The notes under the pieces: generated by a model
Database searches by the model: none
What the model was told of the DNA's origin: nothing
The model's input: only the letters and a program-made list of their open reading frames with translations
From: an uncultured Flavobacteriaceae bacterium
GTDB lineage: Bacteria; Bacteroidota; Bacteroidia; Flavobacteriales; Flavobacteriaceae
Direction of reading: 5' to 3'
DNA length: 43,132 nt
Assembly (NCBI GenBank): GCA_905479095.1
Contig: CAJQLD010000085.1
Location: forward strand, 1 to 43,132
Part shown: positions 21,453 through 34,230 of the stretch, piece after piece
How the letters are laid out: each line of letters begins with the position of its first letter
How positions within the stretch are numbered: position 1 is the first letter of the stretch
Program-made: the position numbers and the translations under genes

Positions 21453-24157
21453 TAGAAGAAAACGATGATCTAATCCATGAGAATACGGACAATCAAGAAA
21501 CAATTACTCGCGTTACGGGGATGTTTAAAGATTGGTTTTTAGACTATGCGTCCTATGTTATTTTAGAACGTGCAGTCCCTGCGATTGAAGACGGATTTAA
21601 ACCAGTTCAGCGTCGGATTTTACATTCCATGAAAGACTTGGATGATGGCCGCTATAATAAAGTTGCAAATATTGTTGGGCATACCATGCAGTACCACCCA
21701 CATGGCGATGCCAGTATTGCAGATGCCATGGTTCAGATTGGTCAAAAAGATTTACTAATTGATGCCCAAGGAAACTGGGGAAACGTCCTTACAGGCGATA
21801 GAGCAGCGGCCTCAAGATATATTGAAGCGCGGCTTTCTAAATTTGCATTAGACGTTGTGTTTAACCCAAAGATCACCGAATGGCAATCGTCTTATGATGG
21901 CCGTCGTAAAGAACCTGTAAACCTTCCTGTCATGTTCCCGTTATTACTAGCGCAAGGGGCGGAGGGAATTGCGGTTGGACTTTCAACAAAAGTATTACCT
22001 CATAATTTCATCGAACTTATTGAGGCTTCAATAAAGCACCTTCAAGGAAAACGATTTACGATCCTTCCAGATTTTGCAACCGGAGGTGTGGCCGATTTTA
22101 CTAATTATAACGACGGGTTAAGAGGTGGACGTGTGCGGTGTCGAGCCAAAATCTCGCAGCTTAACAAAAATACGTTGGTGATTACCGAAGTACCCTTTGG
22201 AACCACAACGTCTTCATTGATCGATTCTATTCTTAAAGCCAATGAGAAAAGTAAAATTAGAATTAAGAAAATTGAAGATAATACTGCTGCTGAAGTTGAA
22301 ATATTAGTGCATTTACCAGCAGGGATTTCACCAGATAAAACGATCGATGCTTTATTTGCGTTTACGTCTTGTGAAACCGCTATTTCTCCATTGGGGTGTG
22401 TAATTGAAGATAACAAGCCTTTATTTGTTGGAGTGACTGAAATGTTACGACATTCTACAGATCATACGGTCGAATTATTAAAACAAGAATTAGAAATTAA
22501 GTTAGGTGAGTTTGAAGAGCAATGGCATTTTGCATCTTTAGAACGCATTTTTATACAAAACAGAATCTATCGTGATATAGAGGAAGAAGAGACTTGGCCA
22601 GGCGTGATCAGCGCTATTGACAAAGGGCTTCAGCCGCATATCAAACATTTAAAGCGTGCCATTACCGAAGAAGACATCACTAGGTTAACTGAAATTCGAA
22701 TTAAGAGAATTTCTAAGTTTGATATTGATAAAGCCCAACAAAAAATTGATGCTCTCGAAGATCAAATTGCAGAAACCAAGGGCTATTTAGCAAATCTGAT
22801 TACCTATGCGATTGATTATTTTAAACGCTTAAAATCAGAGTATGGCGCTGGAAAAGAACGTAAAACTGAAATCAAAACATTTGGTGATGTAGATGCGACG
22901 AAGGTTATTATTAGAAACACAAAACTTTATGTTAATAGAGAAGAAGGGTTTGTTGGTACAGGCTTAAAGCGCGATGAATATGTTGGTGACTGTAGTGATA
23001 TTGACGACATCATCGTTTTTACAAAAGAAGGTAAGTTGATGATTACAAAGGTTGATAGCAAAACCTTTATTGGAAAAGACATCATTCATGTGGCTGTTTT
23101 CAAAAAGAAAGACAAGCGGACCATTTATAATATGATTTATAAAGATGGAAAGGGCGGTGCGTCTTATATTAAACGTTTTGCGGTGACCGGGGTCACTCGA
23201 GATCGCGAATATGATTTGACGAATGGAAAAGCAGGGTCTGATCTGTGGTATTTTTCTGCCAATCCAAATGGAGAAGGTGAAGTTGTTTCGGTGCTATTGC
23301 GCCAAGTTGGAAGTGTAAAAAAACTAAAATGGGACATCGATTTTGCCGATGTCATTATAAAAGGACGGGTGTCCAAAGGAAATTTAGTCACCAAACACGC
23401 TATCAAGCGTATTGAACTCAAAGAAAAGGGAGTCAGTACACTTAAACCGCGAAAAATATGGTTTGATGATACCATTCAGCGCATCAATGTCGATGGACGT
23501 GGTGAATTAGTGGGGGAGTTTAGAGGTGAAGACCGTATTTTGGTGATCACTCAATCGGGGATTGTAAAAACGATTATTCCAGAAATTACAGCTCATTTTG
23601 AAGATGATATGATTGTATTGGAAAAATGGATTCCTAATAAACCGATATCTGCTATTTACTTCGACGGTGATAAAGAAAAATATTATGTAAAGCGTTTTTT
23701 AATTGAAAACGAAAGCCGAGAAGATTCGTTTATTTCTGAGCATGCGTCGAGCACTCTAGAAATTGTCTCTACCGATTGGCGCCCTGTTGCCAAAGTATCG
23801 TTTGCTAAAGATCGAGGTAAAGACCGTCGTGAAGATCAAATCATCGACTTTGAGCAGTTTATTAGTGTGAAGGGAATGTCGGCTTTAGGAAATCAACTGA
23901 CTAAATTAAAGGTCAATCAAATTGATCTCTTAGATCCCTTGCCTTATGAGGAGCCTATTAATACACCTGCCGAAGAAATAGATGTTGTTGGGGAGGAATT
24001 AGTGCCTCAATCAAGCACTCCATCGGATGCGATTGTTTCCGAGTCATCCGCTACTGATTCAGAGCAAACTACTCAGAAAAGTGATGCTACTGTAAAACCG
24101 AAAGCATCAGAGCCAGAAAACGACATAAGCGATGAAGGACAGATCACAATGTTTTAA
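21449..24157 (+). CDS. parC: DNA topoisomerase IV subunit A
   Basis: A 902-residue DNA-cleaving subunit. The winged-helix region holds [13 protein letters not shown] (83-95) and the catalytic tyrosine Y124 in [13 protein letters not shown] coiled-coil tower lies around 400-450, and the C-terminal half is a beta-pinwheel-like region (repeats such as [15 protein letters not shown]). A disordered tail of about 60 residues, rich in S, T, E and P, ends the protein ([15 protein letters not shown] onward). The position equivalent to E. coli GyrA Ser83 is Ala88. To my recollection this is usual in flavobacterial ParC, so it is not a resistance mutation in itself. The stop interlocks with that of the convergent lipoprotein gene (TTAA). 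Confidence 0.88.
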
Positions 24158-24525
24158 TCGATCCGTTTTGCGTCTCCAATCTGTTTGTTAGTATCTCCAA
24201 CATAGCCATATTCAAATTTATAGCCCTTTGATGTGGTGGTTAATATTTTAAGGTGAATGTCTTTTTTCTCCGCACGATTTTTAGGATGAATCGTTTTAAA
24301 AACCATCTCACAATCATTGATCCAACGGACGTAAGAAGAGTCTTTAACGCCGTTAAATTCTTCTATTTGTAGTTTAGAAGTTCTAGAAAAAGTAGACTTA
24401 TAAAGCGTTCCGTCAATTGTGATTTCGCTTTCAAAGTTTCCGGTTTTAAAATCATTACAGTTTCTCTCAATGTTATAACAACTTTGAAGCAGTAACAGCG
24501 CACTACATAGGATTAAATGTTTCAT
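24154..24525 (-). CDS. small predicted lipoprotein, unknown function
   Basis: About 123 residues from the preferred ATG at 24525. The N-terminus MKHLILCSALLLLQSC is a lipoprotein signal, with the lipobox ending LQSC just before YNIERNCND. The remainder is a small strand-rich domain (FKTGNFESEITIDGTLYKSTF and so on), reminiscent of flavobacterial proteins that appear as short secreted hypotheticals. The alternative ATG at 24540 adds five residues that weaken the signal peptide. A minus-strand -7-like box TATGTTTG (24537-24530) also lies between the two. From that box the transcript would be nearly leaderless. Function unknown; membrane-anchored in the cell envelope by inference. Confidence 0.7.
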   Translation of the reverse strand: MKHLILCSALLLLQSCYNIERNCNDFKTGNFESEITIDGTLYKSTFSRTSKLQIEEFNGVKDSSYVRWINDCEMVFKTIHPKNRAEKKDIHLKILTTTSKGYKFEYGYVGDTNKQIGDAKRID

Positions 24526-24560: not shown

Positions 24561-24947
24561 TTATTTGGACGGATTCATCGCATAATTTTTAAAGCTACCA
24601 TCTTTATAAAATATAACGATTCGTTCAATTAGTTCATCGCCACTCGAAATTGTTGCTAAAGGATTCGCAGGTTTTGCTAATTCTTGAGCTTTTTCGGTTT
24701 TGGGAAGTGGGGGCGTGGTGTTTCTAGGGAAATCACCTACGCCGCTTAAAAGCCATAGGAGATCAATTTCGGGAAAGGCATTTAGAACTTTGGAGATAAA
24801 GTCTAAGCTTGGTTTGTTTCGTCCACTCAATATGTGAGAAATACTAGAGCGTTGAACCGTGATGACTTCCGCAAAAGCAGAAGCCGATAATCCATAATAA
24901 TCAAGGATTTTTTTGAGTCGAGTATTGAATTCTGAGGTGTTTATCAT
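24561..24947 (-). CDS. XRE-family HTH transcriptional regulator
   Basis: A 128-residue regulator. The N-terminal helix-turn-helix spans about 6-60, with the recognition region SASAFAEVITVQRSSISHIL followed by SGRNKPSLDFISKVLNAFPEI, the classic lambda-repressor-like HTH_3 pattern. The C-terminal half has a Pro-rich linker (NTTPPLPKTEKAQELAKP) and a short strand-rich end (ERIVIFYKDGSFKNYAM) that could dimerise. It is divergent from the M14 peptidase gene. Two palindromes TTTACA-N2-TGTARM-like lie in its promoter and leader, and two more sit in front of the peptidase gene. One of its own copies contains a perfect minus-strand -7 box. Autorepression plus control of the peptidase is the obvious model, inferred from position only. 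Confidence 0.85.
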   Translation of the reverse strand: MINTSEFNTRLKKILDYYGLSASAFAEVITVQRSSISHILSGRNKPSLDFISKVLNAFPEIDLLWLLSGVGDFPRNTTPPLPKTEKAQELAKPANPLATISSGDELIERIVIFYKDGSFKNYAMNPSK

Positions 24948-24949
24948 TG

Positions 24950-24963
24950 TTTACATTTGTAGA
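24950..24963. promoter_or_regulatory. operator copy 1 of TTTACANNTGTAAA (XRE leader)
   Basis: TTTACATTTGTAGA, one mismatch from the perfect palindrome. It lies immediately before the XRE start codon, inside the predicted leader of that gene. Confidence 0.6.
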
Positions 24964-24975
24964 ACTAGAAAGGCG

Positions 24976-24989
24976 TTTACAAATGTAAC
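24976..24989. promoter_or_regulatory. operator copy 2, overlapping the XRE promoter
   Basis: TTTACAAATGTAAC, one mismatch. Its minus strand contains TACATTTG (24987-24980), a perfect -7 box, placed 33 bases before the XRE start. A protein bound here would block that promoter. It is 26 bp from copy 1. Confidence 0.65.
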
Positions 24990-25157
24990 ACATTGTTGTG
25001 AATTATACAAACATCACAGTAAAATAGATGCATATAAACATAAATAATCACTTTAATTAATCGATGCAAAACATTGATTTTCAATTAAATGTGGTTTAAT
25101 GAAATTAAAAGATTTATTTACTTGACTATCTACTGAAATTAGACCATCTGGGCTGTA

Positions 25158-25165
25158 TACTTTTG
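25158..25165 (+). promoter_or_regulatory. candidate upstream -7 box of the M14 peptidase gene
   Basis: TACTTTTG is a perfect match. A transcript from here would carry operator copies 3 and 4 in its leader. It competes with a second perfect box inside copy 4. Confidence 0.4.
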
Positions 25166-25188
25166 TGAAATATATTTAAAAATATTTG

Positions 25189-25202
25189 TTTACAGATGTA
25201 AA
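25189..25202. promoter_or_regulatory. operator copy 3 (M14 side)
   Basis: TTTACAGATGTAAA, a perfect palindrome with a two-base centre. It lies upstream of copy 4 by 24 bp, roughly at the -33 region of the promoter embedded there. Confidence 0.65.
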
Positions 25203-25212
25203 TTTAAGAATG

Positions 25213-25226
25213 TTTACATTTGTAAA
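25213..25226. promoter_or_regulatory. operator copy 4, overlapping the M14 promoter
   Basis: TTTACATTTGTAAA, a perfect palindrome. It contains TACATTTG (25215-25222), a perfect plus-strand -7 box, 17 bases before the ATG at 25240. Confidence 0.7.
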
Positions 25227-25239
25227 ATTAAAATTAATC

Positions 25240-26406
25240 ATGTTAGATATATCTTCCTTTTTATCGCAGTATCAATCCTTAAAAGCCATTGCTTTAAGAA
25301 ATCGATATGTAACAAATTCTCATATTGAGCCTTTGTTAAAATCGTTGTCAAATCAATTTAGTCAAACGGTTTTAGGGACTTCAGAAGCTGGACTTCCAAT
25401 TCATGGACTTCAAATTGGGACGGGTTCTAAACGTATCTTGATTTGGTCCCAAATGCACGGAAACGAAAGCACGACCACAAAAGCACTCTTTGATTTGTTT
25501 AATTACTTGGAATTAGACACTTGTAAGCCTCTCTTAGACGCTTGCACACTCTTTGTGATCCCAATACTCAATCCGGATGGAGCGCAAGCCTATACGCGGG
25601 TCAATGCGAATCAGGTCGATCTAAACAGAGATGCCAAAAAGGTAAGTCAATGTGAAAGCAAAATTTTAAGAAACGTATTTGAGGATTTTAATCCGCATTT
25701 CTGTTTCAATATGCATGGACAACGTACTATTTTTAGTGCTGGAAAAACCAATAGCTCTGCAGTAGTGAGTTTTCTATCGCCTTCAGAAGATGAAGAACGC
25801 TCATTAACGAGTACGCGTCAAAAGGCTATGGAGGTGATCCAGGTCATGAATCAGGCGTTGCAATCGTTTTTACCGAATCAAATTGGGCGCTATGATGATG
25901 GGTTTAATTCAAACTGTGTAGGCGATTCCTTTCAGAGTGATGGCGTGCCAACAGTGTTGTTTGAGGCGGGACATTACCCAACGGATTACAACAGAGAAGA
26001 AACGCGAAAATACCTTGCCTTAGCCCTTATGAGTAGCCTCGATTATATTTCGAATCATGAGATTACTGGCGAAAACTTTAAGCCATACTTTGATATTCCA
26101 GAAAACGAAAAATTGTTTCACGATGTTATTATTAGAAATGCGATCCTTAATTTAGAGACTCCCAAAAAGAGTTGCGACATCGCCGTTCAGTACACAGAAG
26201 TGTTAGAAAACAGTCAAATTAAATTCAAACCAAAAATTGTTCTTATTGGGGATTTGAATGAAAAATACGGTCATTTAGAGATTAATGCTCATTTTAAGCA
26301 AGTATCCCACCCCAATTTTGACGTGTTATCAGAAAGTTACGAAATCGATTTCTTATTGATAGATTTAATAGAAACATCACTTTTTGTTAATGATAATTTA
26401 ACATAA
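25240..26406 (+). CDS. M14-family zinc carboxypeptidase-like protein
   Basis: A 388-residue metallopeptidase. Zinc ligands are H73 and E76 in SQMHGNES and H159 in CFNMHGQRT. Substrate-binding motifs are NPDGAQAYTR (111-120) and VDLNRD (126-131), and the probable catalytic glutamate is E242 in VLFEAGHYPTDY. No signal peptide is present, so it should act in the cytoplasm on small peptides or peptidoglycan-derived substrates; the substrate is unknown. About 130 residues at the C-terminus form an extra domain with no motif I know. I start at the ATG 25240. An in-frame TTG at 25186 would run translation through both operator palindromes and the -7 box. It is divergent from, and probably controlled by, the XRE regulator. 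Confidence 0.85.
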   Translation: MLDISSFLSQYQSLKAIALRNRYVTNSHIEPLLKSLSNQFSQTVLGTSEAGLPIHGLQIGTGSKRILIWSQMHGNESTTTKALFDLFNYLELDTCKPLLDACTLFVIPILNPDGAQAYTRVNANQVDLNRDAKKVSQCESKILRNVFEDFNPHFCFNMHGQRTIFSAGKTNSSAVVSFLSPSEDEERSLTSTRQKAMEVIQVMNQALQSFLPNQIGRYDDGFNSNCVGDSFQSDGVPTVLFEAGHYPTDYNREETRKYLALALMSSLDYISNHEITGENFKPYFDIPENEKLFHDVIIRNAILNLETPKKSCDIAVQYTEVLENSQIKFKPKIVLIGDLNEKYGHLEINAHFKQVSHPNFDVLSESYEIDFLLIDLIETSLFVNDNLT

Positions 26407-26477: not shown

Positions 26478-26957
26478 GTGGCTAAAGTAAAACTAGACGA
26501 AATCGATCATCAAATATTAGATATGCTGATTGACAACACCCGTGTTCCATTCACAGATATCGCAAAAAAATTATTAATATCTGCAGGTACTGTTCATGTT
26601 AGAGTAAAAAAAATGGAAGATGCCAAAATAATTAAAGGGTCCTCTTTAACCATAGATTATCAGAAATTAGGATATTCTTTCATTGCCTATGTAGGTGTTT
26701 TTTTACAAAACACATCTCAAACAAAATTTGTATTAGAGCGAATTTATGAAATTCCTCATGTAACCGTTGCGCACATTACAACAGGAAAATTCAATATTTT
26801 CTGTAAAATCCGTGCAAAAAGCACCACACATGCTAAGGAAATTATCTTTAAGTTAGATGAAATTGAAGGGGTGTACAGAACAGAAACGATGATTTCATTA
26901 GAAGAAAGTATCAACGACAAGAAACGTTTGATGCATTCGATCTTTAATGATATGTAA
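26478..26957 (+). CDS. Lrp/AsnC-family transcriptional regulator
   Basis: A 159-residue protein with an N-terminal winged helix-turn-helix (LDEIDHQILDMLIDN, then VPFTDIAKKLLISAGTVHVRVKKME, residues 5-53) and a C-terminal RAM/AsnC ligand-binding domain (YSFIAYVGVFL, then VTVAHITTGKFNIFCKI). Such proteins form octamers that sense amino acids or other small effectors. The start is GTG, giving MAKVKLDEID, which fits the family alignment; no in-frame ATG is available. The target and effector are not indicated by context. It lies 71 bases after the M14 peptidase gene on the same strand and converges on aroB with 11 bases between stops. Confidence 0.9.
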   Translation: MAKVKLDEIDHQILDMLIDNTRVPFTDIAKKLLISAGTVHVRVKKMEDAKIIKGSSLTIDYQKLGYSFIAYVGVFLQNTSQTKFVLERIYEIPHVTVAHITTGKFNIFCKIRAKSTTHAKEIIFKLDEIEGVYRTETMISLEESINDKKRLMHSIFNDM

Positions 26958-33786: not shown

Positions 33787-34230
33787 CTATATTTTTGATC
33801 TTTCATCAGAAAGTATCTTTTCTGATAGTTTGAGAATCCTCGTCCCATCGTCAGCAACCGATAATTCTAAAATAGATATATTTGGAGGCAGTAAGTCATG
33901 AATTTTATTGGGCCATTCAAGAAAATTCCAAGATCCAGAACAAAAATAATCTTCAATTCCCATGTCCAACGCTTCATATTGATTTTTGAGCCTATAGAAG
34001 TCAAAATGATAAACGCTGTCGTTTTTTACTTTATATTCATTTACAATTGAAAATGTGGGGCTAGACGTTTTGTCAATGCCACCTAATTCTTTAACAATTG
34101 CACTGATAAGCGTGGTTTTTCCAGCACCCATATCGCCATAAAATAAAAGCGTTTTTGATTGCACATTTTTTAGAACTGTTTGTGCTACATCAGATAGTTC
34201 ATTGAGATTGAATCGTAATTCTTGAGTCAT
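33787..34230 (-). CDS. tsaE: tRNA threonylcarbamoyladenosine biosynthesis ATPase TsaE
   Basis: A 147-residue P-loop protein with Walker A GDMGAGKTTLISAIVKELG (32-50), SSPTFSIVNEY as the switch-like motif and VYHFDFYRL with the conserved DxYR-type ending. ALDMGIEDYFCSGSWNFLEWP is the usual C-terminal signature. TsaE drives the TsaB-TsaD complex that attaches threonylcarbamoyl to A37 of ANN-decoding tRNAs. It lies one base after porX and 30 before ald. No other tsa gene is present. The porX-tsaE-ald order is one I recall from flavobacteria generally. Confidence 0.93.
   Translation of the reverse strand: MTQELRFNLNELSDVAQTVLKNVQSKTLLFYGDMGAGKTTLISAIVKELGGIDKTSSPTFSIVNEYKVKNDSVYHFDFYRLKNQYEALDMGIEDYFCSGSWNFLEWPNKIHDLLPPNISILELSVADDGTRILKLSEKILSDERSKI

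Follow-up and report, generated by a model that had tools for sequence, protein, structure and literature searches.

Helically phased palindrome clusters between divergent XRE regulator and M14 peptidase genes point to a probable looping autorepressor in Flavobacteriales

The DNA analysed here (the window, 43,132 nucleotides from an uncultured Flavobacteriaceae bacterium) contains a gene for an XRE-family regulator and, in divergent orientation, a gene for an M14 zinc carboxypeptidase. The neighbouring genes in the window include a topoisomerase gene, an Lrp/AsnC gene and an aroB-like gene, with names partly read from the open frames. A prophage origin was considered and discarded, as no phage context is seen at the locus. 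The genes closest to the intergenic gap are:

24154..24525, minus strand: gene for a small putative lipoprotein, located after the XRE gene and kept in 74 of 80 loci
24561..24947, minus strand: XRE/HTH_3 regulator gene, 128 aa (Pfam HTH_3, E 5.5e-8)
25240..26406, plus strand: M14 zinc carboxypeptidase gene, 388 aa (Pfam Peptidase_M14, E 2e-12)
26478..26957, plus strand: Lrp/AsnC regulator gene, directly after the M14 gene, which it accompanies in 79 of 80 loci

The M14 protein reaches 47.8 bits against a cut-off of 21.6, and Peptidase_M14 is the sole Pfam family above its cut-off, so the protein does not belong to M78/COG2856. The motifs H73-x-x-E76 and N129-R130 and the residues H159 and E242, which presumably have the catalytic roles of their counterparts in M14 enzymes, are invariant among 36 aligned sequences. 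The best Foldseek matches of the structural model (pLDDT 92) are carboxypeptidases (best E 9.5e-13, TM about 0.5), while the score against the NCBIfam MpaA equivalog, 27.3 bits, is far below the cut-off of 157. The start codon at 25240 is a predicted one, with an in-frame ATG at 25210 and a TTG at 25186 further upstream. The small protein encoded after the XRE gene has no Pfam or NCBIfam match, and the name lipoprotein reflects our own reading of its sequence.

The XRE protein passes the curated HTH_3 cut-off (33.2 bits vs 23). Its model, of moderate confidence (pLDDT 72, pTM 0.50), consists of five helices forming the HTH domain, a disordered linker and a C-terminal β-hairpin. Pfam detects no S24/LexA-like C-terminal oligomerisation domain, and the model contains the hairpin without any large oligomerisation domain; a ligand domain is not seen in it either. 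The hairpin is present in all 14 of the class-level relatives L206-L219, which have no adjoining M14 gene in the fetched stretches. The initial annotation had speculated that a peptide might be both the ligand of the regulator and the substrate of the peptidase; this idea finds no footing in a protein modelled as only HTH, linker and hairpin, the last of which occurs also without an M14 neighbour. Some of the other class-level HTH relatives (L233, L236, L237 and L239-L245) lack the hairpin and have helical-looking tails instead; the hairpin-less proteins are probably paralogues.

The gap between both genes contains four copies of the palindrome TTTACA-N2-TGTAAA, and a pattern scan of the window confirmed their positions and mismatches as described in the initial annotation, together with the paired spacings of 26 bp on the regulator side and 24 bp on the peptidase side. 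A degenerate fifth site (P0) and a conserved central block had both been overlooked. The features of the gap are:

24950..24963, no strand: R1, regulator-side palindrome, one mismatch, at +3 from the XRE ATG
24976..24989, no strand: R2, regulator-side palindrome of the 'R28' class, one mismatch, overlapping the predicted XRE -7 box
24980..24987, minus strand: predicted XRE -7 box (TAnnTTTG), TACATTTG, facing the regulator gene
25038..25095 (approximate limits), no strand: central conserved block, 58 bp, AT-rich
25155..25168, no strand: P0, degenerate distal palindrome, three mismatches, 34 bp before P1
25189..25202, no strand: P1, peptidase-side palindrome, perfect
25213..25226, no strand: P2, peptidase-side palindrome, perfect, overlapping the predicted M14 -7 box
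25215..25222, plus strand: predicted M14 -7 box (TAnnTTTG), TACATTTG, facing the peptidase gene

As had been noted before, TACATTTG overlaps one site at each end and is oriented toward the respective gene; it fits TAnnTTTG, the -7 consensus used here, which is taken from PMC2483708. A possible -33 box of the XRE promoter, TTTG on the minus strand at 25008-25011, is located 20 bp upstream of the -7 box but is not clearly conserved, and the M14 promoter has no clear -33 box at the usual spacing. In the own genome of the window (an assembly of 2.23 Mb, 90% complete), the palindrome occurs with at most one mismatch at 40 places, including the four in the gap, as compared to 24 for a reversed control pattern. 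At this density, 0.005 sites would be expected in 292 bp, and the four palindromes are therefore considered real (Poisson P about 3e-11). The statement that the window holds no other copy has to be corrected: one more copy with a single mismatch is located at 34040-34053, and there are eight copies with two mismatches.

Among 149 relatives, an XRE match occurs in 117 and an M14 match in 115, counts that run up to an E of 0.001 and include paralogues. All 170 XRE-M14 pairs that could be assembled from the fetched loci are divergent. The XRE gene is present in 77 of 80 fetched M14 loci; of the remaining three, two run into a contig end and L121 does not. The 170 pairs yield 161 distinct gaps, in which matches to the palindrome profile are far more frequent than in flanking DNA (on average 4.6 matches above a score of 8 per gap vs 0.018 per 300 bp). 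The profiles for the palindrome and the central block were fitted to the same loci that are reported, so that the scores lean toward these loci, and a scan with the exact pattern gives the same picture of conservation. Sites occur at both ends in 141 of the 147 distinct gaps of up to 420 bp, with at least two sites at each end in 109, while one side is missing in six. The expected conservation of the sites with the gene pair is thus borne out by the gaps of the relatives; several long gaps in other families contain few sites or none (none in L188).

The arrangement of the sites is highly regular. On the regulator side, most genera have one site at -7, covering the XRE start codon, and one at about +28, whereas the sites are at +3 and +28/29 in the genus of the window. 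The peptidase-side sites P1 and P2 are spaced by 24 bp and are often preceded by P0, 34-35 bp before P1; the position of P0 is conserved in relatives, and some close ones, e.g. L020 and L022, have copies with a single mismatch. Of 380 spacings below 60 bp between neighbouring sites, 322 fall into two classes, 23-26 bp (155 spacings) and 34-36 bp (167), which differ by approximately one helical turn. The central dinucleotide is fixed as AA in R28 (101 of 104 loci) and as TT in P2 (103 of 104), while P1 is free in this position (AA 38, AT 34, TT 27) and the centre of P0 is likewise not fixed. Fixation in R28 and P2 together with freedom in P1 is the pattern expected if the operator overlaps a TAnnTTTG box. 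In the -7 site over the start codon, the centre is also fixed (AT in 91 of 95 loci), presumably due to the start codon within it.

Loci in which one of the two genes is absent allow the array to be assigned to its probable owner. Nine M14 loci come from genomes without an XRE match, three from the family of the window (G050, G067, G081), four from other families of the order (L200-L203) and two from other families of the class (L220, L221). Seven of them have no site and two have one weak site each, about 680 bp from the M14 start in G050 (locus L193) and about 400 bp from the M14 match in L202. Conversely, G039, which has the XRE and Lrp/AsnC genes but no M14 gene and no convincing remnant of one, keeps sites at -7, +27, +204, +238 and +262. 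In G042, about 1.3 kb of extra DNA (L161:1140-2474) with a lipoprotein-like gene lies between the far cluster and the M14 gene, and the array is located beside the XRE gene. G096 and G109, also of this order, match the XRE protein and not M14; each keeps a near site together with a second site at a distance of about 190-200 bp, the latter weak in G096. Two genomes without a good M14 match (G052, G072) have near sites only.

Loci beyond the order were also examined. XRE relatives were detected in 52 of 198 class genomes (E 1e-8) and M14 relatives in 15 (E 1e-20), and each count includes six or seven genomes from the order of the window. From the 46 XRE-matching class genomes outside the order, 34 loci were fetched, of which 13 have both near sites (up to 90 bp from the start) and far sites (140-290 bp) and 21 do not. 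All eight loci of the families f48 (5/5) and f25 (3/3), in which M14 has no match at E 1e-20, are among the 13, together with five of 26 others, three of which (L233, L240, L242) are relatives without the hairpin. Every f48 locus offers at least one near-far combination at 214-226 bp; as these were picked among several possible pairs, they are weak evidence for a conserved phase. Among the f48 loci, three have divergent genes, which differ from locus to locus and begin over 80 bp beyond the last site, the next gene of L209 is in tandem, and no gene of at least 100 aa is seen in L206.

Because M14 loci without the XRE gene lack the array while XRE loci without the M14 gene can keep it, the array follows the XRE gene. 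From this co-loss we infer that the XRE protein binds the palindromes. The initial annotation had described the array as shared by the XRE-M14 pair, with which it is indeed conserved, but XRE orthologues without an M14 neighbour can retain it; comparison of these loci suggests that the array is probably older than its M14 neighbour and separable from it.

The distance between the two clusters varies among genera, but not freely. Across 94 loci, R28 and P1 are separated by 202-203, 210-215, 221-225 or 232-235 bp, commonly by about 213 or 224 bp, with single outliers at 190 and 248 bp. When independent changes are taken on a quick FastTree tree of both proteins, 15 of 16 changes of at least 4 bp correspond to whole helical turns (thirteen of 9-12 bp, one of 20 and one of 21), the other being 24 bp, and this periodicity is matched by none of 20,000 random draws. 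As a control, the distance between P1 and the M14 start codon in 102 loci shows a whole-turn step in only one of 12 changes (4, 4, 4, 5, 5, 5, 5, 7, 8, 11, 13 and 25 bp). Gaps of more than 330 bp, mostly from Aquimarina and other families, were excluded from this test, since P1 cannot be singly assigned in them; when they are kept (106 loci), 20 independent pairs comprise 14 changes of 9-12 bp, two of 20-21, two of 24, and one each of 36 and 37. Both versions leave aside loci without a far pair 23-25 bp apart or a near site at 17-45. When any difference is counted, 22 of 33 independent ones amount to 1-3 bp, and the phase is kept loosely rather than to the base.

Whole-turn steps between distant sites are a classic sign of looping, and the changes of the inter-cluster distance by whole turns thus point to DNA looping. 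Based on this comparison of relatives, the DNA between the clusters is probably looped. The initial annotation had proposed that both promoters are repressed by direct occlusion. This view is upheld in so far as both predicted -7 boxes are overlapped by a site, but the whole-turn spacing suggests a loop and not occlusion alone. Alternatively, the clusters could be independent operators that act by occlusion at either promoter, with another cause for the whole-turn steps. The overlap with both -7 boxes would suffice for such a mode of action, and the variation of gap length among genera is in agreement with it, but the contrast between 15 of 16 whole-turn changes and one of 12 in the control is difficult to reconcile with it, as are far clusters that are kept without a nearby divergent promoter (L209, where the array adjoins a tandem gene at its end; G039; G042). 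Independent operators are therefore regarded as unlikely.

The central block provides a second reference point within the gap. In 99 of 102 loci, its start is 59-63 bp away from R28, a near-constant position that does not depend on the fitting of the profile. In a test limited to loci with a block score above 12, only three changes of at least 4 bp are found between R28 and the block (4, 10 and 12 bp), while 16 of 19 independent changes between the block and P1 are 9-12 or 22 bp, the others being 17, 25 and 46 bp. Several explanations for the block were examined and rejected. A wedge model averaged over 124 loci shows no curvature peak, which speaks against a static bend. A search of the gap for RNA elements gave no Rfam match near the gathering score, and a likeness of the block to the region before the AsnC gene of the window, as would be expected for an Lrp/AsnC site, failed in a 78-locus alignment.

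These distances raise the possibility that the phasing serves a second protein, either an architectural one or Lrp/AsnC, which would bind the central block and contact the XRE protein or RNA polymerase at the P cluster. The near-constant distance of the block from R28 and its mostly whole-turn distance from P1 would fit such a role, and an Lrp/AsnC gene adjoins in 79 of 80 loci. In contrast, the region before the AsnC gene lacks the block when the 78 loci are inspected by eye, and no known protein motif was recognised in the block. Furthermore, a second protein adds a part to the system and would be compatible with a loop. The idea is considered improbable.

The extent of the regulon was examined by pattern scans. 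The implied restriction of the array to this locus holds for paired sites with at most one mismatch, all of which lie beside the XRE gene in the genomes with a known XRE position. With up to three mismatches, the 24-bp paired pattern is found at 16 places away from the XRE gene in 80 genomes by our count, 14 of them with three and two with two mismatches; G050, a genome without an XRE match, accounts for one of the 16. Two further three-mismatch places occur in G155, a genome outside those with a known XRE position. The corresponding control gives 31 matches at unlisted places, some of which are perhaps at the locus itself. The 35-bp paired pattern is found in 20 of 80 genomes, with four places away from the XRE gene by our count and three control matches; it has no match in the window's own genome, where 26 bp separate the near sites.

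Single sites give no indication of a wider regulon. In 13 genomes of one or two contigs, we count 33 perfect palindromes, 13 of which are in the XRE-M14 gap; the remaining 20 compare with 16 matches for the control pattern, and a wider regulon was rejected on the grounds that perfect single sites outside the gap roughly equal the control in frequency. Weak single targets may nevertheless be present elsewhere in the genomes. The own genome of the window has three further perfect palindromes outside the window. One is within a long open frame (contig C22), one is near a cytochrome-c-like frame (C76), and the third (C32; L002:1501-1514) ends 13 bp upstream of the start codon (ATG) of a phosphosugar-mutase-like frame, both names being our reading of open frames. 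The last palindrome also contains TACATTTG and may possibly be just a -7 box.

Taken together, the XRE protein is probably a looping autorepressor with essentially one target region, and in Flavobacteriales it would repress the M14 gene as well; binding, repression, cooperativity and the loop itself are deduced from sequence comparison. XRE dimers would bind the palindromes of both clusters, cooperatively via sites spaced by about 24-25 or 35 bp. The near cluster would cover the -7 box of the XRE gene and also, in most genera but not in that of the window, the start codon, while the far cluster would cover the M14 -7 box and the DNA just upstream. Oligomers on both clusters would touch each other and loop out the DNA between R28 and P1, mostly 202-235 bp or about 20 helical turns, which would explain why larger changes of this distance are nearly always whole turns. 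In Flavobacteriales, the predicted M14 promoter lies within the far cluster and would hence be co-repressed.

The linkage of an XRE repressor to a metallopeptidase resembles the pairs DdrO-IrrE and ImmR-ImmA. By analogy, the M14 enzyme could trim the hairpin of its own repressor and thereby relieve repression. The hairpin ends only a few residues short of the XRE C-terminus and M14 enzymes are often carboxypeptidases; moreover, DdrO is among the nearest solved structures to the XRE protein, albeit with weak E-values, and the XRE-M14 pair is widespread in the order. However, the known antirepressor pairs use an M78/COG2856 peptidase instead of M14, the hairpin is present in the 14 relatives without M14 next door, and several genomes keep M14 without an XRE match. 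Cleavage of the repressor is only conjectural here, and an antirepressor role of M14 appears very unlikely. An equally far-fetched extension would combine these elements into a vertically inherited one-locus switch of Bacteroidia, in which the XRE protein, a central-block protein and the loop form one complex that is broken in Flavobacteriales when M14 trims the hairpin. If true, the XRE-M14 locus would represent a chromosomal bistable switch with a built-in antirepressor.

For the looping autorepressor favoured here, several known systems offer a comparison. To our knowledge, looped autorepressors are known mainly from phages, plasmids and sugar operons. The AraC loop of about 210 bp and the GalR loop of 114 bp, the latter with a central HU site, both depend on helical phase, but these regulators belong to other protein families with sugar-sensing domains, whereas no ligand domain is seen here. 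MpaA is a cytoplasmic M14 enzyme and PgrR a LysR regulator; the former is a distant sequence relative of the M14 protein described here, the latter belongs to another regulator family than XRE, and the titles and abstract openings on MpaA/PgrR contain nothing on an XRE-M14 locus. The paired operators of phage lambda are spaced by about 24 bp, comparable to the 23-26 bp class of the present sites. Lambda CI forms an octamer loop between OL and OR, with pairwise cooperativity and autoregulation, and loops DNA between single operators five or six turns apart (PMC8053113, PMC4207663). The whole-turn steps at the present locus resemble this tolerance for whole turns. In contrast, the loop proposed here would have about one tenth of the length of the 2.3-kb lambda loop, and the locus is chromosomal and conserved across genera. 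Neither a CI-type C-terminal domain nor a phage context is seen here.

The closest described system found is RcoLS20, an XRE-family regulator of plasmid pLS20. It represses the main promoter, both activates and represses its own divergent promoter, and acts via two operator clusters and a DNA loop; a 5-bp insertion destroys proper regulation (PMC4207663). The present clusters are likewise arranged around divergent promoters and, by comparison of relatives, helically phased. RcoLS20, as described there, differs in being a plasmid conjugation switch with CAGTGAAA repeats as operators instead of the TTTACA palindrome, and in its statically bent 75-bp spacer, as compared to an R28-P1 distance of about 200 bp without a predicted bend. 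The locus is filed as an XRE regulator that works like CI/Rco without belonging to either family; it differs from them in the protein architecture, the operator sequence, the chromosomal setting, the conserved inter-cluster block and the M14 target. Literature searches on the gene pair, its sites or an XRE loop in Bacteroidetes gave no paper on this locus as judged by titles and abstract openings, with subscription journals largely outside their reach. Evolution appears to have run the helical-phasing experiment repeatedly at an ordinary chromosomal locus and across a whole order. With a regulator that has one clear target region, the locus could serve as a compact model of how promoters are controlled in Bacteroidota. 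What induces the M14 enzyme may reveal its role.

Two genes related to the locus deserve mention in their own right. The Lrp/AsnC protein encoded next to M14 is unusually constant, with 81-100% identity across genera. A second, longer M14 relative (frame of about 490-540 aa) is encoded away from the XRE locus in G030, G035, G042, G047 and others.
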